Below are positions 1 to 59,439 of a stretch of 64,000 bases of DNA, piece after piece. The notes below the pieces were generated by a model. It was given only the letters and a program-made list of their open reading frames with translations, was not told where the DNA came from and ran no database searches. This stretch comes from Chloracidobacterium thermophilum B. Its GTDB lineage: Bacteria; Acidobacteriota; Blastocatellia; Chloracidobacteriales; Chloracidobacteriaceae. A program made the position numbers and the translations under genes. Numbering within the stretch: the first letter of the stretch is position 1; every line of letters starts with the position of its first letter. The stretch spans positions 868,001 through 932,000 of the forward strand of contig NC_016025.1 of assembly GCF_000226295.1 (NCBI RefSeq). The letters run 5' to 3'.

Positions 1-4792
<4,792 letters not shown>

Positions 4793-4909: not shown

Positions 4910-6733
4910 CTAACGTCCTTTCTCGCGCAGCGCTGCCTGCACTTCTGGCGGCAGGTTCGTGAAGAACCGCATGTTGGTGGCACGTTCGATGTCTGCCACC
5001 GACACCCGGTAGTCTTCCCAGTTGTCGTTGCGGATGCCCTGGCGGTTGGGCATATCCACGGCGATGACCTGCGTATCCCGGTTGATGCGCTCCAGGTCGT
5101 TGTCACCCCGTGGGATCAGCACCACGACTTTCCAGACCCGTTCGGGAATGGCGATGTTGGCGTCACCTCCCTGCCCCGGAATCCGGCCCACTTCGCCGTA
5201 GCTGCCCATGATGGTGTAGGCCTCCATGTCGTTCTGGCGAATCTGGTCGCGGACGTACCGTTCCATCCGCTCCCAAGGCCCCTGGTTGTTGTCCGGCGCC
5301 TGGGGAAGGACATTCGTCATCAGAAATGTGCCGTTGTTAGCCTCGCGCGAAGCTGTACGGTCGGCGCTGGGCAGGTGATGCCCACGGTCATAGCCGCTGC
5401 CGGTGTAGTCAAACGTCGTAACGCGCCGCCAGCCTTCGGGAAGCTGGTTGTCAGTGCTGTTTTCATCGAACTTGCCGCGCCCTTCGCGTCCGAGGTGTGA
5501 CCGGTCGGTGTGCCAGGCCACCCAGTTCGGTTTGGCATCGGCCCGGTTGTACGAAGCCGTGAACTGATCGCGGACGATGAGGTAGTTGTTTTCCTGGCGC
5601 ACATCCGGGACGGCATTCGAGGGATTGCCCAGCAGCAGCGGGCTGTTGTCCGGTGGCGGCGTCGGACGCGGCGGCGCGGGCGGCGGCGTGCGGTCCGTGC
5701 CTGTGACTGACAGCGACCAACTCCGCAGCGTTCCCACATCTCCCCGCTCGCGGTCTTCCACGATGAGCGTCCATTCGCCCTTGGCGTCCGTTCCGTTGAA
5801 ATCGGAAGGGTTGGCCGTAAAGCTGACCGTACCGTTGCCCCGCCCGCCCTCACGGTTGCGTAGCGTTACTTCCTGTCCCTGGGGCGAACGCAGCTTGACT
5901 ACCAGATCGCTGGCGTAGGTGTGGGCAATGTTGACATCCACGCGCACGCCGGTTGTCTTCAGGTCGTCATTGATGGCAATCGTTGAGGTTGTTGTCTGAA
6001 AGTCACGGATGGACGCATTCGGCGTGGCCGTTTGCGTCACGGTACGGCCGCCGGTTGCCGGTGGCGGCTCCGGCGCAGGACGGGTGCCGGTCAGTGCCAG
6101 CGACCAGTTACGCAGTGTGCCGACATCGCCGCCAGCGCGGTCTTCGACCACCAGCGTCCAGTTGCCTTTGGTTGAAACCCCGTTGAAATCAGTGGGGTTG
6201 GCTGTGAAGCTGACCGTACCGGTGCCGCGTCCGCCCTCACGATTGCGCAGCAGCACTTCGCGCCCTTCGGGCGAGCGCAGCTTGACCACCAGATCGCTGG
6301 CATAGCTGTGCGCGATGTTGACATCCACGCGCACGCCGGTTGTTTTCAAATCCTCGGTGATGGCAATCGTGGAAGTTGTTGTCTGGAAGTCACGGATGGC
6401 GGCGTTGGGGGCGGCTGAGGCCGTTACCGTCTGGGTATTGCCGGCTGCGGCAGCCGCAGACGTGGCAGCCGTGGGCGCGGCCGTAGGCGCAGCAGCCGGA
6501 CGGAACATCGAGAAGAGGCTGGCCCGCAGTCGGTCAGCCTGGTTGAAACCTACCCGCGCTGTGTGGGCGGCATCGAGTGAAGTCGGGCTGAACGTTGTCG
6601 GGCGTGCCGGCGTTGTTTCGGAGGGGGTTGGCGCCGGTTGGGGGCGCGTCCGGGGAGCAATGGACTGGTCTTCCACCCGCGCACGTTGCAGACGGGAGAC
6701 AAGGGCAGCGAAGGGATTACCGATGCGCGACAT
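4910..6733 (-). CDS. DNA/RNA non-specific endonuclease (NUC family) with two P-domains
   Basis: A 607-residue protein. Residues 1-100 are a Pro/Ala-rich leader without a recognisable Sec signal peptide. Residues about 101-217 and 232-346 are two nearly identical proprotein-convertase P-domains (SDLVVKLRSP, NWTLVVEDRA / EWTLIVEDRE). About 380-600 is a NUC1/EndA-type nuclease with the signature YDRGHHLPSADR (449-459); the His of DRGH is the expected general base, and N469/N474 may be metal-ligand candidates. The start at 6733 is preferred over the in-frame ATG at 6820 because AAAGG lies 7 nt upstream. It cleaves DNA and RNA without sequence specificity by family analogy. P-domains usually sit on secreted enzymes, so export by a non-Sec route is possible. 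A terminator follows the stop. Confidence 0.88.
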   Translation of the reverse strand: MSRIGNPFAALVSRLQRARVEDQSIAPRTRPQPAPTPSETTPARPTTFSPTSLDAAHTARVGFNQADRLRASLFSMFRPAAAPTAAPTAATSAAAAAGNTQTVTASAAPNAAIRDFQTTTSTIAITEDLKTTGVRVDVNIAHSYASDLVVKLRSPEGREVLLRNREGGRGTGTVSFTANPTDFNGVSTKGNWTLVVEDRAGGDVGTLRNWSLALTGTRPAPEPPPATGGRTVTQTATPNASIRDFQTTTSTIAINDDLKTTGVRVDVNIAHTYASDLVVKLRSPQGQEVTLRNREGGRGNGTVSFTANPSDFNGTDAKGEWTLIVEDRERGDVGTLRSWSLSVTGTDRTPPPAPPRPTPPPDNSPLLLGNPSNAVPDVRQENNYLIVRDQFTASYNRADAKPNWVAWHTDRSHLGREGRGKFDENSTDNQLPEGWRRVTTFDYTGSGYDRGHHLPSADRTASREANNGTFLMTNVLPQAPDNNQGPWERMERYVRDQIRQNDMEAYTIMGSYGEVGRIPGQGGDANIAIPERVWKVVVLIPRGDNDLERINRDTQVIAVDMPNRQGIRNDNWEDYRVSVADIERATNMRFFTNLPPEVQAALREKGR

Positions 6734-7038
6734 GACAAACCTTTCAAAAAGACCACAGGGGCGAATGAAAAAATAGGTAACGGCTCTGGTGCCGGGTGGA
6801 CCCATACCAGGGCTTTCCACACCATGTTATCGCCCCGGTCAGGCGCGTGTTGCGTCCGGCTAAGTCTTTTCTGGAAAAATAGTTAGGACACAAGCCGGAA
6901 TGTAAACGGGAGATTTCAGAAGAGGCTCTTGCCGCCACCGATGACACAGAAACGCAACATTATGAGAACGTCCGTGACACAGCAGGTCCATCTTTTCTGG
7001 AAGGAAGTTACACCCCTAGCCGGAAGGTAAACAGAAGA
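6734..7038. other. 305-bp intergenic stretch between nuclease start and helicase end
   Basis: It holds the nuclease ribosome-binding site at its left edge and most of an imperfect direct repeat (see the repeat entry). No credible gene is present; short frames here are not supported. Confidence 0.5.
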
Positions 7039-7053
7039 TTACAGGAAGAGCCT
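6865..7053. repeat. Imperfect direct repeat of about 63 bp at the island edge
   Basis: Copy 1 (6865-6928) and copy 2 (6991-7053) both begin TCTTTTCTGGAA and share AGCCGGAA.GTAAAC and the final GAGGCT/GAGCCT. Copy 2 includes the last codons of the helicase at 7039, so copy 1 resembles a duplicated gene end. It may mark the border of the AT-richer island. Confidence 0.6.
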
Positions 7054-9405
7054 TTCACAGGTAGCCGAGATAAAAGGCAAAACATCTCTGGGCAATGTTG
7101 GTAGCTTGATTCCGTCTTGAGGTTGCCTTGAAGGTTGCGGGTGCATTCTTGGTTGTTGTGTCGAAATCGTATCCGGCTTGGACACACCAGTGGAATCCTG
7201 CACTGGTTCTGATTTATCCCAGTTTATTCCATGGGAATCAAACGAAGCTTCTTTCAGGTTTTTCGCCATAACACAGAAGTATTCAAGTTTTTTCCACTCA
7301 CTGCGGTCACCGATAACATACAGCCGTTCCCGGGCGCGGCTGATAGCCACATTGAGCAGATTGGGTTTTTGAGCAGACCAACTTTTTGCAAGTGGTTTCT
7401 TTGGGTTTCCACCCAGCACCAAGATCACAATGTCAGCTTCCTTTCCTTGACTTGCGTGTACTGTACCGACCTTTTTTTCATCAAGTTTGTAATTCTCAGC
7501 TTTATTTTTCAGTTCTTCAGCAACGGAGCGGAAAGGAGTGATGAGATAGATGTTCTTAGGATTAACTTTCCTGATTTCTACCAGCTCTTTGAGCAGCTTA
7601 TCAAGTGCCTCCCCTTCTTCCTCAATCCAGTGACCTTTTGACTTCTGCCCGCACACATGAATCCAAGCTGGTTCAGGTAGAACACAGGATGTACTAACTT
7701 TGCCATGAATCATCAATCCTCCGTAGGCAATCTTGTTAATAATGGAAAACATAGGTTCGCTGCAACGCCAATGGACGCGCAATGGGCAGCTGACCCAGAT
7801 ATTTTCTTTCTTTTCTTTACTCTTTTGTTTAATCAATCCTTCAATTGTCGTTCCCCATCTACTGGCCCGGTCGGCTAGGTGCTGAACTGACGAACGACTT
7901 GGGCGAAATTCTGCTTCTACTCCAAGAGTTTCTGCCAGCTTTTTTTCAAGCTCCCCCGGTAAAGTGACAATGGGTTCGAGCTGTAGTGGGTCACCAACAA
8001 CAACGACCCGCCGCGCCCGCCAGATGGCACCGACGGCCTGCTGCGGAGCTGCCTGCCCGGCTTCGTCAACAAGCAACCAGCCAATCCCGCCCTTTCCGAT
8101 ACCGGAAAACATCCGTCCGACGGAGGCAAATGTCGTCGAGATGACTGGTACAATAAAGCACAGGGCATCAAGAGCGTGCTGGCAGGCCTGTTCTTCTGAC
8201 GAAAGCTTGCCTTCCAACCACTCACGGACAACCTGCAACAGGGCGAGCCACTCTTCAGGGTAAGCTTCAATGAACGCCCGATGCAGGTCGAGCGCGGCAA
8301 GAAACAGGTTCTGACGTTCTAAAAACCATTCTTTGCTATGGAAAGGTGATGACTTTTCGCGATCGTCTTCCTTTTGAGAATGTAAAGGGTTATTTTCAGC
8401 AGTACTTTTCACTTTCTCTCTCGATTTTTTCTCAGCTTTTAAGACATCATTAAACTTCTTCCGAGCCTCTTCTAACTCGATCGCCGGCTGAGCTTTTCCA
8501 TCTTTCAGCGAGAGAAGATGCTGACGTAACCCACTGGAAGCTGCTTCCGAGTCGCAGAGTGCACGAATGAACTTCTGACAATTCTCCTTTTTTCCCAGTG
8601 CGGCTGAAATTAGTCCCCAAGCTTTCTCTTCCGTCTCTTCAGCAGCTTTGATACTATCTTGCTCAGGAACGTCTTTTTTTCGGCCATTGAGGAGCCTTGT
8701 GGCGATGTCGCGAAAATAGTCATGGCCTCTGACTCTTTCCTGCGACACAGAGGCCATGCGTGGCAGCTCCAAAGAAATGTTTTCAACAGGGCTATTATTC
8801 GATGATGCTACAACAATGGAGTGATCACGTAGTTCTTCCTTCAGAGGACGGTAGCCAAATTCTTGGTTACTAATGTTAATCTTTATTTCTTCGAAAATTC
8901 CTTTCCTATCTTCTTGAAGCTTTGATAATTTTAGGGCGCGTCCGACTACAACCATTGCGACAATGTCACGAAGTAGGACCGTTTTTCCCGTGCCAGGTGG
9001 ACCATTGACAGCAAAAAGACCTTCCTTTAAGGCGGAGGTACTCGTATCTTCCTCGTGGGCTTCTCTTTTTTCGGCAAACTCCTCGCACATAGCATTGATA
9101 GCGAGCTGCTGGCTGAAAACAAGGGGGTAATCACTTGGCCAGCATCCAAGTGGAAAATTTTCTGGTCTCAGCTTTTCCCAAACTTTTTGGTCTTTACGCA
9201 CATCTATTTTTTGGGTTTGCTTAGTGAAGTAGCTTTGCAAAGCTTTTCCGAAGTTATTTTCACCTGCTTTGGTTATCTTGTAGAGATCATTAATAAAAAA
9301 ACTGCTGGTAGGAACACTGTCAATGTCAACTTCGACTTCATTGTCCTGGTATTCACTTTGAGGACTAAGAAAGGGAAAATCACTTTCATCATTTTTTTTG
9401 TTCAC
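7039..9405 (-). CDS. UPF1/DNA2-type superfamily 1 helicase, probable C-terminal part of a split gene
   Basis: A 788-residue frame with a GTG start. Superfamily 1 motifs in order: NGPPGTGKTVLLRD (Walker A), SSNNSPVEN (motif Ib region), WLLVDEAGQAAPQQ (Walker B), VVVGDPLQLEP (motif III), GTVHASQGKEADIV (motif V), NVAISRARERLYVIGD (motif VI). The C-terminal 60 residues are low complexity. Base composition is markedly AT-richer than the flanks, suggesting acquisition by transfer. The GTG start has no clear ribosome-binding site and lies inside the upstream frame; deleting one A of the A8 run at 9392-9399 would join both frames into about 1,020 residues. From memory, related helicases carry the upstream domain on the same chain. 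A defence or RNA/DNA surveillance role is inference. Confidence 0.85.
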   Translation of the reverse strand: MNKKNDESDFPFLSPQSEYQDNEVEVDIDSVPTSSFFINDLYKITKAGENNFGKALQSYFTKQTQKIDVRKDQKVWEKLRPENFPLGCWPSDYPLVFSQQLAINAMCEEFAEKREAHEEDTSTSALKEGLFAVNGPPGTGKTVLLRDIVAMVVVGRALKLSKLQEDRKGIFEEIKINISNQEFGYRPLKEELRDHSIVVASSNNSPVENISLELPRMASVSQERVRGHDYFRDIATRLLNGRKKDVPEQDSIKAAEETEEKAWGLISAALGKKENCQKFIRALCDSEAASSGLRQHLLSLKDGKAQPAIELEEARKKFNDVLKAEKKSREKVKSTAENNPLHSQKEDDREKSSPFHSKEWFLERQNLFLAALDLHRAFIEAYPEEWLALLQVVREWLEGKLSSEEQACQHALDALCFIVPVISTTFASVGRMFSGIGKGGIGWLLVDEAGQAAPQQAVGAIWRARRVVVVGDPLQLEPIVTLPGELEKKLAETLGVEAEFRPSRSSVQHLADRASRWGTTIEGLIKQKSKEKKENIWVSCPLRVHWRCSEPMFSIINKIAYGGLMIHGKVSTSCVLPEPAWIHVCGQKSKGHWIEEEGEALDKLLKELVEIRKVNPKNIYLITPFRSVAEELKNKAENYKLDEKKVGTVHASQGKEADIVILVLGGNPKKPLAKSWSAQKPNLLNVAISRARERLYVIGDRSEWKKLEYFCVMAKNLKEASFDSHGINWDKSEPVQDSTGVSKPDTISTQQPRMHPQPSRQPQDGIKLPTLPRDVLPFISATCERLFL

Positions 9406-10087
9406 TTAGCCTAACAGACTTCACCAGCATGCTTATTTCTTCTCCGAGGAGTTCCTCGGGAAATTGACATTTTTCAGCTATGTGTGTTATAAGCTTATCA
9501 ATACACTCTTTACTTCCTCCCATTCTCCTGAATTCTTCCCAATTTTTTTCGATATACTCAATTAGTTCTTTTCTAAGTTCAAATAATTTGTTATAACAGC
9601 CTTCTGCAACATAAGAATTTTCATTGTAAGAACCCTCTTTTTCCAAGGTTTTCAAGACTTTTTCTCCGCTGTCCTTACACCCTAAAACAATACCAGACGC
9701 CCAAGCATTCAGTGTCAGGTTGAGAGTATCTGGTATTGGCTGTCCGTACTTATCAAAGTGTAGATCAAAGAGACGTGCAGTTACTTCTGTAGCATTCTGC
9801 TTTTTTTTATCTTTTGGATCGATGTGCTTTACCAATTTCTCTACCAATTCTTGGGTATCATAAAGCCCACAATGCACAACATACCTCCAGTGCGTTTTTT
9901 GATGTTCCTCGCGTTCTTGGTGTTTGTGGCCTTTCTCCCACGGCAGCAATGCGTTTCCACCTTTCACAAGGTATGATGGCTGGTATTTGTCATCTGGTTT
10001 CTCCTTACTGATCTGCTGAGGGGACAGGGCTTCGACAGCACGCCAGAAAGCCAAAACTTTGAGGATTGCGTCTTTTTCTGTGCTCAT
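9389..10087 (-). CDS. Uncharacterised protein, probable N-terminal domain of the adjacent helicase
   Basis: About 232 residues from ATG 10087 (alternative upstream start at 10126). The N-terminus reads ILKVLAFWRAVEALSPQQ, a motif I associate with the N-terminus of large DNA2/NAM7-type helicases, followed by WRYVVHCGLYD and a helical, charged C-terminal half. No catalytic motif is visible. It overlaps the helicase frame by 17 bp and ends at TGA directly after an A8 tract (CAA AAA AAA TGA). It shares the low-GC composition of the helicase. It is either a separately translated subunit, one product of transcript slippage at A8, or the 5' half of a frameshifted gene. Confidence 0.65.
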   Translation of the reverse strand: MSTEKDAILKVLAFWRAVEALSPQQISKEKPDDKYQPSYLVKGGNALLPWEKGHKHQEREEHQKTHWRYVVHCGLYDTQELVEKLVKHIDPKDKKKQNATEVTARLFDLHFDKYGQPIPDTLNLTLNAWASGIVLGCKDSGEKVLKTLEKEGSYNENSYVAEGCYNKLFELRKELIEYIEKNWEEFRRMGGSKECIDKLITHIAEKCQFPEELLGEEISMLVKSVRLSEQKK

Positions 10088-10236
10088 TGCCTTACGACCT
10101 CGTTCGCTTTTGCTGCCAGCCGGCACCGATGAGAAGTTCGCGTCACCCCGAATACCAATGGCATACCAAATGTGTTACATGATACTCATCTTGAGGCCGA
10201 TCTCAAGGCACCAAACCTGATCAAGGAAACAAACGG

Positions 10237-22101: not shown

Positions 22102-23056
22102 CCGGGCCGGGACTCAGGCGGCCGACAGAGTATCGGAGGCACTGAACATCCTCCGGGCGCTTGGTGTCCCACAAAAACAGCAAAACGAGCGGTCGGCGCT
22201 GACTCTACTTGCATTGCTCGGACTGACGCCAGAGAAAGGCTGGACTCAGGCGGCGGACCCATGCCTTGGCATCAATCAAATGATGAAGCATTTCGAGCAG
22301 CACTTCGGCAAAAGGTATGCTCCGAACACCCGCGAAACCGTCCGGCGCTCCACGATTCATCAATTCGTCCAAATGGGTCTGGTTCTGGCAAACCCGGACA
22401 GACCTGACCGTCCGGTGAACAGTCCTAAAAATTGTTACCAAGTCGCACCGGCCCTGTTGGAACTCGTCAGGGCATACGGCACAGCTTCCTGGGACGAGTC
22501 TCTCAAAAACTTCGTGACCAGCGCAGAAGCGCTCCGCCGGTTACAGCCAAGAGAGCGGGTGATGCCCTTGATTCCGGTCACGCTGCCCGATGGCCGTCAG
22601 CTTGACCTCACGGCTGGCGGGCAAAACCCATTGGTGAAACAGATCGTGGAAGAGTTTTGCCCGCGCTTCACGCCCGGCGGCGTGCTGGTCTACGTGGGCG
22701 ACGCTGGCAGGAAACAGCGACACCTAGAGACAGACTATCTCACGAAGCTCGGCGTGGTGCTTGATGAGCATGGCAAAATGCCAGACGTTATCGTTCATTT
22801 GCCGGAGAAGCATTGGCTTGTTCTCATCGAGGCTGTCACCAGTCATGGTCCCATCAACGTCAAGCGTCAGCACGAACTCAGGGAGCTGTTCAAAAAGGTC
22901 CCGGCTGGCCTGGTTTTCGTCACCGCCTTCCCTACCCGTCGGGCGATGGCCAGGTATCTCTCCGAAATCGCATGGGAGACGGAGGTTTGGGTCGCAGAAG
23001 CGCCAGGTCACATTATCCATTTCAACGGTGAACGCTTTCCTGGTCCGTATGAATGA
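22094..23056 (+). CDS. BsuBI/PstI-family type II restriction endonuclease
   Basis: 320 residues. The N-terminal half is a helical DNA-recognition region (APNTRETVRRSTIHQFVQMG); the C-terminal half carries the family hallmark HWLVLIEAVTSHGPIN followed by KRQHELRELF and GLVFVTAFPTR. The acidic residues and Glu of LIEAVTSHG belong to the PD-(D/E)XK-type core of the BsuBI/PstI family, which cuts CTGCAG. It starts inside the end of the methyltransferase gene, giving coupled expression. It appears intact. Confidence 0.93.
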   Translation: MGDRAGTQAADRVSEALNILRALGVPQKQQNERSALTLLALLGLTPEKGWTQAADPCLGINQMMKHFEQHFGKRYAPNTRETVRRSTIHQFVQMGLVLANPDRPDRPVNSPKNCYQVAPALLELVRAYGTASWDESLKNFVTSAEALRRLQPRERVMPLIPVTLPDGRQLDLTAGGQNPLVKQIVEEFCPRFTPGGVLVYVGDAGRKQRHLETDYLTKLGVVLDEHGKMPDVIVHLPEKHWLVLIEAVTSHGPINVKRQHELRELFKKVPAGLVFVTAFPTRRAMARYLSEIAWETEVWVAEAPGHIIHFNGERFPGPYE

Positions 23057-41000: not shown

Positions 41001-43721
41001 TCAGCCCCAGCGACGTATCGAGTACAGATCAGCCGCCGTTCCAAGGACCGCGGGCGATGCCCCTTCGGTCCCGGACTGCGCCAGCCACTGCGCCAACCGG
41101 GCTTTGGCCGCCAGGGACGCGCCGGGATTGCCCAGGCGTCGGTAGGCTTCCACGAGCGTGCGCCAATACCGCACCCGCTGGAGGTCATCCGGCAGGTTGG
41201 GGATGATGGCTTCCAGCCGTTGGACCGCCTGCCAGCCGACAGCCAACGCATCGCACTGCACGGCCAATCTTGCCAGGTTGAGGGGCACTTCCGCCTGAAG
41301 CCCCTGAGCTTCCGTTGCCACAGAACCGACTTCCTGCAATTTTTGCCGATAGGCTTCGATACGCTGCCACTGCGCGAGAGCTTCCGCCGGATGGCCTGCG
41401 TCTTCTTCCATATTGGCAAAGCGGCTCAGCAGAGAAACGATGTCCAGCAGCAGTTCGCGGTTCGTGGGGTCTTCCGATGCCAAAGCCTCAAACTGCCGGA
41501 AGACCGTCTCAAACTGCCTTCGTGAGACAGCAAATTGCCTGAGCCGGCCGTTGATCTCGGCTTCATCCACCAGGCTGTCCAGAACCGAGCGCCGGAGTTC
41601 AACCGAGGTCGGTTGCGAAGCCAACAGTTTTTGGCGCAGGGCCAGCGCGCGTTGATGGAGGCCCCATGCCCGCTGGTACACGCGCTGCGCTTCAGCCGGC
41701 AGCCCGGAGTGCCTGAGAAACGTCCCCAGGTTGAGCAGGCAATACACTTTGCGCTGAAGAACACCGGCCAGCTTCCGCTCACAGGCCAGCGTGGCGGCGG
41801 GTCCCGTGGCCACCGGTTCGAGCAGGCGGTAAGCTCTGGCAAAGTGCTTCAGGGCATCTATGGCGTTGCCCTGCATGTGATACCAGTCACCATTGGCAAT
41901 GGCCAGCGTCGCCGTGAGATAGCGGACTTCGGGATGCTCCGGGTGGAGTCTGGTCAAGCGCTCGCGGAGCGTTGCTGCCCGGTCGAGATGGAAACGGGCG
42001 GCAGTGAAGTCCCGGTTGCGATACAGCACCAGCTCACCGAGCCGCTCATAGCTGATGCTCAGGTCACGCAGGCACTCAAAGTCATTTCCCTGCAACTGGC
42101 AGGCTTTCTCCAGCCACTGGCGTCCGGTTTCGTAACTTTTCAGCGCACCGGGCACGTCGCCGAGGTTGGCGGCGTAGGGGCGCCCCTGAACCTCACCCAC
42201 GCGGATGTAGGCGCGTCCCAGTTCGCGCTGAAATTTTGGATCGGAACTGGCCTGTTGTCCCAGCCGGTCAAGGTAGATCAGCGTCTGCTGTACCAGCACC
42301 TCACGGGCGGAAGTCGAACCGGGCAGGCGCTCGATGGCGTCGTGCAGCTCAAAGATGTTCGAGCGCGCCAGCGACCACGTTTCCTGAAACTGCCGTTTGG
42401 CCTGCTCCTCGGCCAGCGCGGACAGATGGGCCTGCCGGAGTGAAATGACGGTGGTGACGGCCAGCGCGGTGATGAACACCAGCGTGAGGCCGGCTGTGAC
42501 CCGGTGGCGATGCAGGAATTTCCGCAGCCGGTAGCGCGCTGACGCACCGCGCGCCAGCACGGGCCATCCCTGCAGATAGTGCTCGATGTCGGCGGCCAAC
42601 TGTTCCGCTGAGGCGTACCGCGCCGGTGGGTCCTTGTGCATGGCCCGCATGACGATGGCATCCAGGTCGCCGGCCAGTTCCCGGCTGGACGCCGGCCGGA
42701 CCTCGGCTGGTGAACCGGACGGTTTCAGCATCTTCTCCGGCTGCCGCACCGCCACGCTGGGCGGCGGCGGCTCGACCTGTTGAATGAGGTACTCCAACGA
42801 TGGCTTTCCTTCGCTGACCTTCTCGACATGAAAGGGCAGGCAGCCGGTGAGCAGCTCATACAGCAGGACGCCCAGCGCATAGACATCCGTCGCCGTGGTC
42901 ACAGCTTCCCCGCGCACCTGTTCGGGGCTGGCATAAGGGACGGTCATCGCCCGCTGGCGGGTGACAGTGTGGGCTTCGGCTGTGGAGGTCTGCTCGTCCA
43001 GCAGCTTGGCAATGCCAAAATCAATGAGCTTCGGTATGCCGTCCTCCGTCACGAGGATGTTGCCCGGCTTGAGATCGCGGTGGATGACCAGATTCTGATG
43101 GGCGTAATGCACGGCCTGGCACACCGACTGGAACATTTCCAACCGTTGCCGCGTCGTGAGCTGTCGCTGCTGGCAGTAGGCGGTAATGGGCACGCCCGGT
43201 ACGTACTCCATGACGAAAAAGGGCAGCCCGTTCCGGGTTGTTCCGCCGTCCAGCAGGCGCGCAATGTTCGGATGTTCGAGGCGGGCGAGAATGGCCCGTT
43301 CGGTTCGCAGACGGCGCTGCAAAAAGTCGCGGTTGAAGGCGTACTGGTGTCCGATTTTGATGGCGACCCGTTGTTCAAAATCCAGGTCATCCCGCACGGC
43401 GAGATAGACGGTTCCCATGCCCCCGGTGCCGAGTTCGTGGAGAATGCGGTAGGGACCAACCTTATCTTCGAGAACCGACGTGGTTTGCCTGGCGGCCAGG
43501 GCGCGGAGAGCATGGTCAACCAGCGGTGAAGAGCCAAAGTTCCACGAAGCCTCATCCGCCTCGTAGGCCGTAAGCAACTCCAACACTTCCCGGCACAGGC
43601 TCGGATACCCGCCACAGGCCGTTTGCACAAACTCACGGCGGGCCGCCGGAGGCAGTTCTATCGCCTGGCGCAGGATTTCGTTGACCTGCGCCCAGCGATC
43701 AGCAGACAAGTCGGTGGCCAT
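41001..43721 (-). CDS. Ser/Thr protein kinase with TPR C-terminal region, 3' end likely frameshifted
   Basis: 906 residues as read. Order: short helical N-terminus (SADRWAQVNEILRQAI), kinase domain (LGTGGMGTVYLAVRDD, VAIKIG, VIHRDLKPGNILV, LIDFGIAKLL, ASPEQVRGE), one membrane segment (LTLVFITALAVTTVISL), then a helical TPR-like region. It ends SIRRWG and stop at 41001. In the neighbouring frame the next bases read LTNPHRALTLLRTLAASD and continue to a TAG at 40819, so a single-base deletion near 41015-41030 has probably cut about 61 residues. Kinase domain looks intact. AGGAGG lies upstream of the start; the ECF sigma gene is 44 bp upstream. Confidence 0.88.
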   Translation of the reverse strand: MATDLSADRWAQVNEILRQAIELPPAARREFVQTACGGYPSLCREVLELLTAYEADEASWNFGSSPLVDHALRALAARQTTSVLEDKVGPYRILHELGTGGMGTVYLAVRDDLDFEQRVAIKIGHQYAFNRDFLQRRLRTERAILARLEHPNIARLLDGGTTRNGLPFFVMEYVPGVPITAYCQQRQLTTRQRLEMFQSVCQAVHYAHQNLVIHRDLKPGNILVTEDGIPKLIDFGIAKLLDEQTSTAEAHTVTRQRAMTVPYASPEQVRGEAVTTATDVYALGVLLYELLTGCLPFHVEKVSEGKPSLEYLIQQVEPPPPSVAVRQPEKMLKPSGSPAEVRPASSRELAGDLDAIVMRAMHKDPPARYASAEQLAADIEHYLQGWPVLARGASARYRLRKFLHRHRVTAGLTLVFITALAVTTVISLRQAHLSALAEEQAKRQFQETWSLARSNIFELHDAIERLPGSTSAREVLVQQTLIYLDRLGQQASSDPKFQRELGRAYIRVGEVQGRPYAANLGDVPGALKSYETGRQWLEKACQLQGNDFECLRDLSISYERLGELVLYRNRDFTAARFHLDRAATLRERLTRLHPEHPEVRYLTATLAIANGDWYHMQGNAIDALKHFARAYRLLEPVATGPAATLACERKLAGVLQRKVYCLLNLGTFLRHSGLPAEAQRVYQRAWGLHQRALALRQKLLASQPTSVELRRSVLDSLVDEAEINGRLRQFAVSRRQFETVFRQFEALASEDPTNRELLLDIVSLLSRFANMEEDAGHPAEALAQWQRIEAYRQKLQEVGSVATEAQGLQAEVPLNLARLAVQCDALAVGWQAVQRLEAIIPNLPDDLQRVRYWRTLVEAYRRLGNPGASLAAKARLAQWLAQSGTEGASPAVLGTAADLYSIRRWG

Positions 43722-53278: not shown

Positions 53279-53993
53279 CTAGCGCAGGCCCGTCGTGACG
53301 ACCAACTTGCCCTTTGCGAAGGGATTGTCCTCGTCAGGAAACGTCACCACAGGATACCGTGACGGAGCGGAGGGATCGTAATCCCACATACCGGTAGCGA
53401 TGACTTGCCCGTTGCGCCCGGCAACAAACTTGATGCGGCCGCTACGCTCGGCATCCGCCGGGATCGTAACCCGTACCCGACGGGTCTCACCCGGTCCAAT
53501 GCGGTTTTCAGGGCCGAAGGCTTCGCCGGCAACACAGAGATGGACCGGATCACTGGAAGCGTTTTTGAACACGGCCTCAATTACCTTCTGGGATGAAGGC
53601 GGAGGTTGCCGCATCCCACCACCCGGAGGACTACTCGGTGGACTGACCGGAGGGCTGGTTGGCGGCGGTTGCTGTCTCCCGCCACCGGGTGGGTTGTCCG
53701 GTGGACTGGCCGGCGGTGTCCGACCGTCAGCTTCGGCCGGATACCCCTTCACCACAGCCATCCCGGCGCCGCCAGTCCCGCTGTTCTGCGCCCACGTCGC
53801 CGGGTCAGAGTCCACAATGGTGTATGTCCCGGCCGGCACGACGACATTCGGCGCACATTCCCAGTACGCATTCGGCACGCCACCCTGCCCCGGCGTCCCC
53901 CGCATCTGCCACGGCCCGTATATCCTTCCGCTGCTTTGCATCAAACCCACAGTCCCGGGGCGTGCGCCACGGCCGTGGTTCCAGTGGTACGTC
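53279..53993 (-). pseudogene. C-terminal part of an envelope protein, 5' end replaced by IS sequence
   Basis: The frame runs upstream to 54085, but the part before 53993 reads into the end of an IS200/IS605-type element (RAGIPRLQAGEEVK), so the native start is lost. The host part has TYHWNHGRGARPGTVGLMQ and GGVPNAYWECAPNVVVPAG, DPATWAQNSGTGGAGMAV, a widely seen secreted-domain pattern, then a Pro/Gly linker and an Ig-like end (HLCVAGEAFGPENRIGPGE). It may be the 3' remainder of the gene whose other part lies at 55812-59302, in the same direction. Confidence 0.7.
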
Positions 53994-54178
53994 TTGACCT
54001 CCTCTCCCGCCTGAAGGCGGGGGATTCCCGCCCGTCGCGAGAAGTTGCGTTTCTCACTACGCCGCCGCTTGTACGGCGGTGTCACTTACCGAAAAAACGC
54101 CGTAAAGCCCTGCACTTTAGGGCAGGGATATAAGGCGCACGCTGTTTTATCAAGCCAAACCTGTGCTAAAATAGCAGT

Positions 54179-55441
54179 ATGAGAGTCATGGAAGCCAAGC
54201 TACTCAACGGGACAGCAGAGCAGTATCAGGCTCTGGATGAAGCCATCCGTACCGCACAGTTTGTCAGAAACAAATGTGTGCGGTACTGGATGGACAACAA
54301 GAGCGTAAACAAAGCTGTTCTCTATGCCCACTGCAAAGACCTGGCCAAAGAGTTTGACTTTGCCAGGAAGTTAAACTCAGCGGCAAGGCAGGCAAGTGCA
54401 GAGCGAGCTTGGGCTTCCATTTCTCGGTTCTATACCAACTGCAGAAACAAGGCGGTCAAGAAAGGCTATCCGCAGTTCAAGAAGAACTGTCGGTCGGTCG
54501 AGTACAAGCTGTCCGGCTGGAAGCTGTCTACTGACGGCATGTCCATCACGTTCACCGACGGCTTCAACGCAGGAACATTCGCCTTGTACTGCAATGGTGA
54601 GGCAAGACACCATATCCTAAGCTTCAAAATCAATCGGGTGCGGGTGATACGCAGGGCAGATGGATACTATGCCCAGTTCTGCCTGGATGTGGAGCGCAAA
54701 GAGCGGGGAGAATACACAGGCAATGTGATTGGCATTGACTTGGGCTTGCAGGCTTTCTACACCGACCAGAACGGCAACCCTGTAGAGTGTCCCAAGTATC
54801 TGCGGAAAGCAGAGAAGCGGCTAAAGCGCCACCAGCGCAGGTTGAGTAGGAAGTTCAAGAAAGGGGCGAAACCTCAATCCAAGAACTACCACAAGCAAAA
54901 GAAAAGACTAGGCAAAGCACATCTGAAAGTCCAACGCCAGCGTAAAGACTGGGTGATTAAGTTAGCTCGGTGCGTGGTAGCATCTCACGATGTCGTGGTG
55001 TACGAAGACTTGCAGATGAAGAACCTGGTCAAGAACCATCATCTTGCCAAATCCATTCATGATGCTGGCTGGTCTCAATTCACTGCGTGGCTGGACTACT
55101 ACGGCAAGGTGTGGGACAAGGCAGTCGTCAGCGTACCGCCGCAGTACACCACACAGGACTGTAGTAACTGTGGGCGTATGGTAGTAAAAACCCTATCCAC
55201 CAGAACCCATAGTTGTCCTCAATGTGGATTTGAATCAGACAGAGACCAGAATGCGGCTTTGAACATCCTCAAGAAGGGACTAAGCATCTTGGGAATGGAG
55301 TGGCAAAACAGTACCTTTGGGCAAAAGGGAACTGCCTCGAAAGAGGGAACGCTTGGGGAGAGATGCACCGCTGCTTTAGAGGGGCAACCTGATGAAGTAA
55401 GTGCGCTCGCAGAACCAAGAACAAGAATCCCCTGCCTTTAG
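54179..55441 (+). CDS. tnpB: RNA-guided nuclease TnpB of the IS605 family
   Basis: 420 residues, intact. RuvC-like triad: Asp in GIDLGLQAFYTDQNG, Glu in VVYEDLQMKNLVK, Asp in ESDRDQNAALNIL. Zinc finger CSNCGRMVV and CPQCGFE. TnpB cuts DNA with an RNA from the element's right end as guide and helps the element persist. The first ATG is at 54179, another at 54188; TAAAAT at 54168-54173 could be a -10. Its stop codon (55439-55441) lies inside the right-end hairpin, so the gene and the guide RNA overlap. Confidence 0.93.
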   Translation: MRVMEAKLLNGTAEQYQALDEAIRTAQFVRNKCVRYWMDNKSVNKAVLYAHCKDLAKEFDFARKLNSAARQASAERAWASISRFYTNCRNKAVKKGYPQFKKNCRSVEYKLSGWKLSTDGMSITFTDGFNAGTFALYCNGEARHHILSFKINRVRVIRRADGYYAQFCLDVERKERGEYTGNVIGIDLGLQAFYTDQNGNPVECPKYLRKAEKRLKRHQRRLSRKFKKGAKPQSKNYHKQKKRLGKAHLKVQRQRKDWVIKLARCVVASHDVVVYEDLQMKNLVKNHHLAKSIHDAGWSQFTAWLDYYGKVWDKAVVSVPPQYTTQDCSNCGRMVVKTLSTRTHSCPQCGFESDRDQNAALNILKKGLSILGMEWQNSTFGQKGTASKEGTLGERCTAALEGQPDEVSALAEPRTRIPCL

Positions 55442-55458
55442 GCAGGGGAGTATGTCAA
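55300..55458 (+). ncRNA. Probable omega RNA scaffold of the inner element
   Basis: In TnpB elements the guide RNA comes from the 3' end of tnpB and the right end, with the flanking bases as guide. Here it would end at the GAATCCCC hairpin (55429-55448) and TCAA, with the guide starting at about 55459. The 5' boundary is a guess; there is no direct evidence of transcription. Confidence 0.45.
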
Positions 55459-55731
55459 TGGTTTCCAGAGGCAGGCAACGGAATCGCTTGACTCTGGTGC
55501 GGGCTATGGTTTTGCAGATGGTCTGGTTGATCCATGCGCTGCCGATCTCGATCTGGGCAAACGACCGGCTAGTGAGCTTGCGCTAGTGAGCTTGCGCCGT
55601 TCTGGTTTCGGCATCGCCAGGATCGTATTGGCAACCTCTGTGTTACGGGACTGAAGACGCGCCAATTCTTCCGCCTTGACCCGGTTCAGGCGCAGGAAAG
55701 GGAGCTTGAGGGTCTTGGTTACGGTTGCCAT
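55459..55731 (-). pseudogene. Truncated, frameshifted tnpB of the outer element
   Basis: ATG 55731 starts TVTKTLKLPFLRLNRVKAEE and PKPERRKLTS, a TnpB N-terminus unlike the inner one. A 14-bp tandem duplication (TAGTGAGCTTGCGC at 55570-55583 and 55584-55597) breaks the frame. With one copy removed the frame continues as FAQIEIGSAWINQTICKT and RCLPLETIDI up to the inner element's right end, where it is cut off. The catalytic part is absent, so it is dead. Confidence 0.78.
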
Positions 55732-55811
55732 GGTGATATGATGCACTATCTTCCGAACGAATATCAGGAGCAATTCTTCGCTATCCATCCCCGCCCTGAA
55801 GGGAGGGGCTT

Positions 55812-58800
55812 TTCGCGGGGAAGCCCGGTAAACTGGCAATGATGGCTTTCGCTTCGCGCTGGGCGGCCTCAACCTGTCGCACCAGGTAGGCGCGGTCGCT
55901 GTTGTCCCAGCAACCGCCGCCGCTGACACTGTAACTGACGACCAGGCGCCCCGGTTTGCCAATGGCCTGCCCCCGCCCACTCGCTCCCAAGTAAGAACCG
56001 GTGTATCCAGAGCCCCACGACCCACGGCGTATCCAGACGGCAAAATCCGCCAGCGCCCCGTCAAATGCGCCAATTTTCAAACTGCTGACCCCTTCGATGC
56101 CGCCGCCTTTGAATAGCCCAACCGCCATGTCAGAAGGCACGTCGCCCTGCGGACGGTCCTTCAACATTTTTTCCGCCCAGGCGCGGATAGCCTGCGGATG
56201 TTGTAGTTCATCGGTTGTGGACACCGGCTCAATGTAGGCCTGGACGGTGGCCGTCACACGGCTCTCCCACCCGTAGGGGCCTTTGATGACCGCGGGCTTG
56301 CGGGTCAAAACAAGCCCATCCTTCGAGTTTGGCCCGCTTGATGGTTTCCAGGTCATGCGTCGCCGAAGCTTCCGCCCTGGCAATATCGGTGAGATAGCGC
56401 CGGAGCAGGTCGGCATCGAGTTCGGGCTTGGCGGTCAACGGCAGCGAGCGCGTCAGGGGCCGTGGTCGGACGACCCGGCCCAACCGGCTGATCATGGCGC
56501 CTTCAATGGCTTCCCGCGCCTGCACAACACCTTCGTACACACGAAGAAACTTCTGGATGGCTTTGACGGCGGCGACCTGTTTCTCCCGGTCAGACATCAG
56601 CCACCCCTTGATGACGCTATAGGGTGCGCCTTCCGCCTCCAGCGACCGCGTCCCTTCCGCCGTGATTTCCAGTGCCCTGAAAACGGTTTGCAGCCGTTCA
56701 TATTGCTCGACGGCCTTCCGGCCACGGTCGGTATCCAGCGCCAGTTCGGCGGCCCGGCGTTCTTCAAAGGTACGCACAATGGCTTCGGCCGTGGCTTGCC
56801 GGGCCTGTTGCCGCCACGACTCACGGGCCGCCAGGAGGGTATCGAGCGCCCGGCGCTGTCCCCGGTCAAGAGACGACGCCCACGCTTCCGCCGTGGTCGC
56901 ATCCTGGGGCAGATTCACGCCCCACATTTTGCCCAGGTCAGTGAGGTCCTCATTGACCTTGCGAGTTCCGGCACAGGCCCGCATCAGTGGGCCATCCTGG
57001 GTAAACAGTCCCGGCCGCCCCTGGTTGACGGTGGCCTGAATGGCTCTGGCCAGCGCCAGAATGGCCAGGCGATTGGCGCCCGAACCGAAGTCCGTCGCCG
57101 TTGAGCGGCGGATGAAATCCTGCGCCACGGCTTCGGCTTCTCCGTCACACATGGCGTCCACAAACTGGCGTGCGCCGGGCACCCCGCCGACATCCAGCCC
57201 CCCCAGATCAACCAGTCGTGCCTGGTCGTCAAAACGACTGGCGGCGTAGAGGCGGTCGAGTTGCTGGTCGAACAGCGTCTGTGCCCCCAAGGTGATGACC
57301 GTTTCGCCGAGGGCTTCGACCAGCGCCGGCAGCGCCGTTTCAGGCACGAGCAGATACATCACGGCCCGGAGAAAAGCCGCGTTGTCACCCTGTTTGAAGG
57401 CGTACAGCGATTGGAAGACCATCCCGAAAAAGGTGTTTTCCACGAGGGTCCGGCTCAGCGCCATGACGAGTTCGACATCGCTTTGCGCGGTGGTGATGCT
57501 GTTCAGTACACCGGCCCACATGGACGCTGACCCCAGATAATCCACCACCTTCAGCCCTTGGGCCCGCGCCGAAGTGCCGATCTCGGTCAACAGATCAACT
57601 GTGCCGCTTCGGTAGCGCCCCTCGGCCGGTGGAAAGATGCGCCCGATGTCCAGCATCTGACCGGCCCGCTTGAGCAGTTCCTGCCCCAGTTCGGTGAGTT
57701 CCAGAAGCTCTTTCAGACGGTTCTTTTTCCCTGCTTCGGCCTGGCGAATCCTTTCCAGGGCAAGGCGCTGCTGGCGCAGGGCATCTATCGTGCCGTCCGC
57801 TTCAGCCTGGCGTACCTTTTCGATGGTTTGCCGGGCGGCCCGGGCATGCTCGGCATAGCTGCCCCCCCCCATGCCCTCGACGATCCGAAAATCATTTTCC
57901 AGCCGGTCGAGGGCTTGCCGGCGGCGTTCCGGGGTTGGCTCCTCCAGGTGATGCGGTCAATCTCGGCCTGGTAGGCGACTTCCGAATACCGCAGGATCAT
58001 CTCCGTCAGCCGGTTGCCGAGTTCCTGCAAACCGGCGTCCGGGTAATTGCCGAAATGCTGTCTGAGCAGGATGTCGAGTTCGGCCGGCGTGGCTTTCTCA
58101 ACGGCGCGGGCCAGGCTCAGCAGCGAGGTGTAGGCTGGATCGGAGAGCAGCGGATCATCGGCAATGAGTTGCCTGACCCCCGGTGCGGCCTGTGCCAGCG
58201 TGTGGGCGCGGGGCAGGTACTTGAGCATCCGCTTGAGCCGCGTCCTGGCATTCAGGTGGGGCACATCGAGCACCTCCAGGCGCAGGTGGCGGGCCATGTC
58301 CAGGCAACCGCCGGGTGCCGTCGAAGTCTGGCTGCGGAAGTAATCCACGCCCAGTCCTTCGAGGATCGGGCGGTAGCGCTCCCAGAGCGTCTGTCCCTGC
58401 CCGCCGCCCGTATCGTTGAAGACGCTCTCACGTAAAAACCCACGCGCATCAAACATCCGGTCATAATCGCCGTTGCGGGCGGCTTCATGGCGCAACCGGG
58501 CCATCATCGAGGCATAGGCCAACTCGCCGGCCGGGTCGCCACGCCACAGTTCGATGGTGCGCGTTTTGCCATCGGGGTAGATGAGTTCAATCCTTTTGAG
58601 ATTACGTCTGGCCCAGTCAATCCCGCCCTGGGTTTCAAACACATGGGATTCGACTTCCGCTCCCTCGGCCGTGACGACGACATCGAAATCCCGGAGTTGA
58701 AACCCCTGCGCCCCCAGCGTCTCCAGAATGGCAGCGCCGCAGGCATCGCGGACCTGACGGTTGACCTCCACATCCGCCCCAAAGATGGTGAAATCAAAGT

Positions 58801-59302
58801 CGCTCCCCACATTGACCGGCTGGTTGGAATCGGGCCACGAACCAGAGTCGCCAATGGCACTCAGGCTGCGCCCCTGGGGAGTCCCAACCCATGAGCGCAA
58901 GGCCCTCTGGCGGCCTTCCAGAATGGCCTGGCGGACTTTGCCCTGGTAAGTGCGCTGTTTGACCTCGATTTGGGCAAACTGCTGCCGTATGTCCTCCGCG
59001 AGTTGTCCCCGCTGCTGTGCCAGGTTGAGTGCGCGCAGGGTATCAATCACAGGTACATTGGGCACGAGCTGCCGGATGCGCTCGGACAGCGTCACCGGAG
59101 ACTGGCCATCCCAGTTCAGAACAGCCCGCCCGACTTCATTCAGAGCGGGCAGGTCCTGTGGCGTAACACCGGCAACGGGTTGACCGGCGTGGAGACTGAG
59201 AAAGCACAGAACCGTGAACAGCACACCGAGACGAACTGAAAACCACCACGGGGAAAACCTTCTCCCAACGGGAAGCGGCGCGAAAACCCGGAGGCAACGC
59301 AT
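55812..59302 (-). pseudogene. Decayed large exported protein with nucleotidyltransferase-like motif
   Basis: Start ATG 59302 is preceded by AAGGAGC. Signal segment LGVLFTVLCFLSLHAGQ, helical region, then GSDFDFTIFG followed about 35 residues later by LRDFDVVV, the acidic pattern of the nucleotidyltransferase fold. Frame 1 runs to about 57950, where DRIT should continue as LEEPTPERRRQALDRLEN in the next frame (one-base deletion). That frame runs through a long helical region to about 56322, where AKL should continue as KDGLVLTRKPAVIKGPYG in a third frame (one-base insertion). The third part ends at the IS at 55812. The downstream part may be at 53279-53993. Function unknown; nothing here is likely expressed whole. 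Confidence 0.72.
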
Positions 59303-59439
59303 GGCCATGCTCCTTGTCTGTGAACTTGCGCGGCCGGGGGCAGAACCACTCCCCCCGGAGACCGCTCACCCCTACAAGCGAGAATGGCGTCCAAAGTGTG
59401 CCAGTCTGGTTGTGTGCTCAATGTGACCGGGGCTGCCGA

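Follow-up and report, generated by a model that had tools for sequence, protein, structure and literature searches.

A UPF1-like helicase gene of Chloracidobacterium thermophilum B is split at an A8 tract, most likely by a miscount or plain frameshift

Results

Two reading frames meet at an A8 tract

Within the window (the whole 64-kb stretch of DNA that was analyzed), two open reading frames on the minus strand meet at a run of eight A residues (9392-9399), which is crossed by both. The upstream frame (9389-10087, minus strand) encodes an N-terminal domain of 232 aa when translated from ATG 10087 and 245 aa if GTG 10126 is used. ATG 10087 is the better start, with GAGGT located 9 nt upstream, and FWRAVEALSPQQ, which the preliminary description had placed at the start of the protein, is indeed found near the beginning of this frame. 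At its other end the frame reads ...GTT AGG CTA AGT GAA CAA AAA AAA TGA TGA... and stops at TGA 9391-9389, directly followed by a second in-frame TGA. The helicase frame (7039-9405, minus strand) reads GTG AAC AAA AAA AAT GAT GAA... from GTG 9405-9403, which abuts the in-frame TAA 9408-9406. It encodes a UPF1-like SF1 helicase of 788 aa with intact Walker A (GPPGTGKT) and DEAGQ motifs, in which AAA_11 (1.5e-16) and AAA_12 (2.1e-14) were identified by a Pfam scan. The earlier account of an upstream frame ending in CAA AAA AAA TGA and a helicase frame crossing the same eight As was thus read correctly from the sequence, and removal of one A joins the frames into a single protein of 1,020-1,033 aa, in line with the ∼1,020 residues predicted.

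The two frames are both open over only 14 nt (9392-9405, minus strand), bounded by TAA 9408-9406 of the helicase frame and TGA 9391-9389 of the upstream frame, and 8 of these 14 belong to the A8. Therefore, a single-base change that joins the frames must fall within 9405-9392. Both frames are otherwise uninterrupted across 1,020 codons, with no extra stop and no second frame break. The A8 codes for part of the linker between the N-terminal domain and the helicase, where a lysine-rich A tract is unremarkable. A second A8 of the same gene (9801-9808, minus strand) lies within the intact upstream frame. These two are the only A8 runs in the window, a count close to that expected by chance from its dinucleotide make-up. 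As only 20 of the 3,245 17-nt stretches in the island carrying the gene contain an A8 (0.6%), the break does not fall at the tract by mere chance.

The position of the tract, at the only place where loss of one base rejoins the frames, would suit transcript slippage at the A8 or +1 ribosomal slippage at AAA-TGA, by which some full-length protein would be made besides a short N-domain product. This is considered very unlikely, since the transcript must lose one base, or gain two, and a tract of eight does not exceed the usual threshold: in many genomes, selection against slippage becomes evident at a length of nine (PMC1088944). A prfB-type +1 ribosomal frameshift was rejected, as no Shine-Dalgarno-like stretch was found beside AAA-TGA.

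The same arrangement could be that of two overlapping, translationally coupled genes, with the N-terminal domain and the helicase as separate subunits. A GTG that abuts the in-frame TAA could serve as the helicase's own start, but it is preceded only by a weak AGG at 4 nt, a poor ribosome-binding site next to the GAGGT of the N-domain start, and before the conserved GCWPSDYPLVFSQQ the helicase frame contains no other in-frame ATG, GTG or TTG.

Homologs are encoded as a single chain

The family set comprised 80 loci from many phyla, identified in a genome-wide scan, and 3 further loci, from C. thermophilum B itself and from its class. The N-terminal domain and the helicase were both present in all 83 loci, and in 80 of them they formed one chain of 889-1852 aa. 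The single-chain homologs that the preliminary description had called for could thus be identified, and they support its view of the two frames as one gene. One of them is an intact paralog on the other chromosome of C. thermophilum B (L024:4352-7804, plus strand), in which a single frame of 1,151 aa spans both domains, with 33% identity to the split gene over the N-terminal domain and 44-52% over the helicase. The GC content of this paralog is 54% and it is AT-richer than its own flanks. Annotated plasmid copies are likewise a single gene of ∼3.2-3.4 kb.

The helicase frame shares 37-49% identity with its intact relatives. The upstream frame was matched at 1.6e-39 by a profile of 51 other homologous N-domains, built without it, and it contains the N-terminal W..xE.xSPQ domain as in the rest of the family. 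In the recorded sequence the two domains do not share one reading frame, which is broken at the A8. Since the homologs are single-chain, the family was single-chain before the break in this copy, and the two frames represent the halves of one ancestral gene.

The remaining three loci are broken as well, none of them at the equivalent of the A8 position. On a Rhodococcus contig the break lies inside the helicase, in a low-coverage hot-spring MAG the gene is in three pieces, and in the leaf symbiont Candidatus Burkholderia verschuerenii it is interrupted ∼40 helicase residues past the domain boundary, with no homopolymer. An evolved two-gene form, the finding that would have spoken against a single gene, was thus present in 0 of 83 loci. 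A true two-gene arrangement is therefore considered very unlikely, even though the break falls in the linker and the N-terminal domain is predicted to fold alone. That no homolog uses such a break also weighs against slippage, for which the predicted independent folding of the N-terminal domain is a point in favor.

The gene lies in an AT-rich island

The split gene lies in an inserted island of ∼3.26 kb (6962-10223), which replaces 172 bp of the spacer of the nearest relative (G004). The GC content is 45.5% for the island, 46% for the helicase and 42% for the upstream frame, with a GC3 of 39-44%, compared to ∼62% for the flanks, in agreement with the earlier remark that the locus is AT-richer than its surroundings. 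For four genus members (G003-G006), the two flanking genes could be located on the same stretch of a contig, where they are ∼320-410 bp apart. The locus is absent from six other Chloracidobacterium genomes; one genome of the genus (G006) encodes a distant single-chain family member at another site. The island's 3' edge carries two imperfect direct repeats (6865-6922 and 6991-7047) of flank-like intergenic sequence, the second of which contains the helicase stop. Inverted repeats were not detected at either edge. Judged by these sequence features, the locus is best described as a mobile, horizontally acquired single-gene insertion.

The family was identified in 750 plasmid records, mostly predicted to be conjugative, and it is patchily distributed across phyla. 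Among the plasmid matches H1, H5 and H20 (L186, L187 and L188), relatives on Klebsiella conjugative plasmids follow TraG among conjugation genes and a relative on a Delftia plasmid lies near a MobH relaxase gene. A search of phages for relatives yielded four records with 27-37% identity, and no match to the DNA of the tract was found in the viral contigs searched.

Several other features were observed in the window. The frame at 56-4792 (plus strand) encodes a large helicase of the DEAD/DEAH type that includes an MrfA zinc-binding domain; its best PADLOC match is DruE (7e-67), over the C-terminal part. The gene adjoining the island (4910-6820, minus strand) encodes a DNA/RNA non-specific endonuclease with two proprotein-convertase P-domains and is conserved in the genus. 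The regions 53858-56263 (with a low GC content of 52-55%), 58247-58983 and 22108-22755 have no colinear match in G004 and are probably further strain-specific islands.

The N-terminal domain is conserved and the split copy has derived features

The N-terminal domain was predicted by AlphaFold2 as a self-contained fold (pLDDT 87.6, pTM 0.85), with its last predicted strand (residues 219-228, of 232 in all) running up to the A8 tract. In the alignment of the relatives, a variable linker follows the domain. No match to a Pfam, NCBIfam or PADLOC family was obtained, although the domain has been conserved across many phyla, in 83 loci. A fold search against the PDB gave nothing at E<=0.001, the best hit being VIA with a Z-score of 3.2, where a weak or missing match does not imply a new fold; viral models likewise gave no noteworthy match. 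Across 162 genomes searched from the class, C. thermophilum B was the only one with the domain.

None of the family-invariant N-domain residues is lost in the split copy. At the conserved helicase positions (>=90%) it keeps 107 of 118, the sixth lowest number of 81. It lacks an insert of ∼160-170 aa between motifs I and II, which is present in most relatives including its nearest kin. Because a tree of the helicase cores places the split copy together with three proteins that carry the insert (SH-aLRT 99), absence of the insert is regarded as a secondary loss, which is also seen in other intact family members. The C-terminal tail after the helicase core is 72 aa long, compared to at most 35 aa in all but three others, and the helicase stop falls within a duplicated piece of flank-like DNA.

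These features bear on a strong rival to a sequencing error, namely that a real one-base slippage mutation occurred at the A8, so that the locus would be a decaying copy or a minority allele that yields an N-domain fragment and perhaps little helicase. The horizontally acquired single-gene island, the other derived changes (insert lost, C-terminal tail replaced), and losses at conserved helicase positions that are somewhat more numerous than in most homologs are consistent with decay. The intact paralog could make the split copy redundant, and three of the 83 relatives are broken too, though elsewhere. Against decay, the frames show no other interruption, the helicase motifs and N-domain invariants are all kept, and the insert was also lost from members that remained intact. 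On balance, decay is regarded as a possible but not probable explanation.

Similarity to known systems

The best-scoring named model for the helicase was MkoC of Mokosh type II (PADLOC PDLC03924; 5.9e-61, best stretch 501-946 of 1136), and this was also the case for 8 of 8 relatives scanned. Like MkoC, the protein is a single large SF1 helicase. However, the match is limited to the helicase core, and the N-terminal FW..xE.LSPQ domain lies outside the model. MkoC is described as an RNA helicase with a PLD domain (PMC10013915), whereas no PLD nuclease domain was detected in either frame (Pfam scan, E<=1) and the helicase core is followed by a tail of 72 aa.

The AAA_11/AAA_12 core and the DEAGQ, GDPxQLEP and TVHxxQGKEAD motifs are shared with the SF1B helicases UPF1, IGHMBP2 and DNA2, and matches of the helicase in the PDB were UPF1, Nam7, DNA2 and SEN1. 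The score against the IGHMBP2 family model TIGR00376 (54.6 bits) was far below the cut-off of 348.9. The protein differs from the UPF1, IGHMBP2 and DNA2 helicases in its lineage-specific N-terminal domain and, in most relatives, in the ∼160-170-aa insert. The protein would probably work on nucleic acid as an SF1 helicase powered by ATP, with the N-terminal domain as a putative sensing or partner-binding module. An anti-phage role would be plausible. The preliminary description had called the locus a mobile defence gene: mobility agrees with the AT-rich single-gene insertion, while a part in defence would depend on the likeness to MkoC, the nearest model, from which the protein departs in lacking PLD.

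Homopolymers in the assembly

Homopolymer length errors are a known weakness of pyrosequencing. The assembly (3,695,372 bp, two contigs) represents the C. thermophilum 'strain B (2011)' consensus, which was obtained by Roche 454 sequencing of a non-axenic, non-clonal culture; later a clonal isolate, not identical to the 2011 consensus, was resequenced with PacBio (PMC8245765).

A second gene of the same assembly is broken at an A10 tract (L124:1501-1510, corresponding to G000:C1:1861297-1861306). It is one frame of 656 aa in G004, relative to which C. thermophilum B has one extra base. A survey of 35 other A/T runs of at least 8, drawn from the retrieved loci of the assembly, placed 19 in frames of at least 300 aa that are open on both sides. 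The error rate per tract is therefore modest and miscounts are not the rule. The toleration of these 19 runs in coding frames of the same genome also argues against slippage at the A8.

Two further one-base differences from G004 were observed in the window. The one at 57949 (CAGGTGATG vs CAGGATGATG) affects a minus-strand frame, 807 aa long in G004, and splits it into the overlapping frames 56232-57956 and 57788-59365. The difference at 41022 lies near the end of a minus-strand frame that measures 930 aa, compared to 1,031 aa in G004.

Discussion

The break most likely originates from a miscount or a simple frameshift, and not from a regulatory switch. The explanation we hold somewhat probable is that the locus is one single-chain gene in which the recorded A8 has one A too many, a 454 homopolymer miscount in the consensus of a non-clonal enrichment. 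Together the two frames make up the gene of a stand-alone, single-chain protein, in which a variable linker joins an N-terminal domain of 230 residues to a UPF1-like SF1 helicase. The A8 lies in the linker codons, and the recorded sequence is one A over frame; if the miscount arose in the Roche 454 consensus, living cells would carry an intact gene. A miscount is likely because of the platform, the non-clonal culture and the A10 break in the same assembly. It builds on established ground, namely homology that makes the two frames one gene, a break confined to 14 nt that include the A8, the sequencing platform and a second homopolymer break; that the tract at 9392-9399 in particular was miscounted is what we infer from these. 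On the other side, the loss of the insert, the long C-terminal tail ending in flank-like DNA and the sixth-lowest conservation also fit decay.

The preliminary description had proposed the A8 as a slippage or phase-variation site. A working site of this kind could yield a free N-terminal domain together with the full helicase, or turn the helicase off in a fraction of the population. This proposal did not hold up well and is now considered improbable: no homolog breaks at the domain boundary, the A8 is shorter than the at least nine As of the precedents, the assembly derives from Roche 454 sequencing of a non-clonal culture, and a second gene in it is broken at an A10. The precedents for slippage are Thermus dnaX with A9 (PMC1088944) and Citrobacter tssM with A11 (PMC4256274), in which a frame break likewise lies at an A tract and a change in tract length rejoins the frames. 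They differ from the present case, in which the tract has eight As and is not conserved, the homologs are intact single chains, and the sequencing platform is prone to this very error. For phase variation, tract length would have to differ between cells and thereby toggle the full-length helicase. A coding homopolymer in a mobile, possibly defensive gene and the non-clonal source culture are compatible with this, but eight As are few for a contingency locus, and there is no comparable break among the homologs, which leaves it a very slim prospect. If the A8 were nevertheless a working site, this gene would be under regulation in a helicase family that is otherwise single-chain.

With a miscount as the favored explanation, the two open frames in this Roche 454 genome should not be read as two genes or as a switch. 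The gene belongs to a widespread, plasmid-borne and patchily inherited family of stand-alone SF1 helicases, which may merit study as defence or mobile-element genes.
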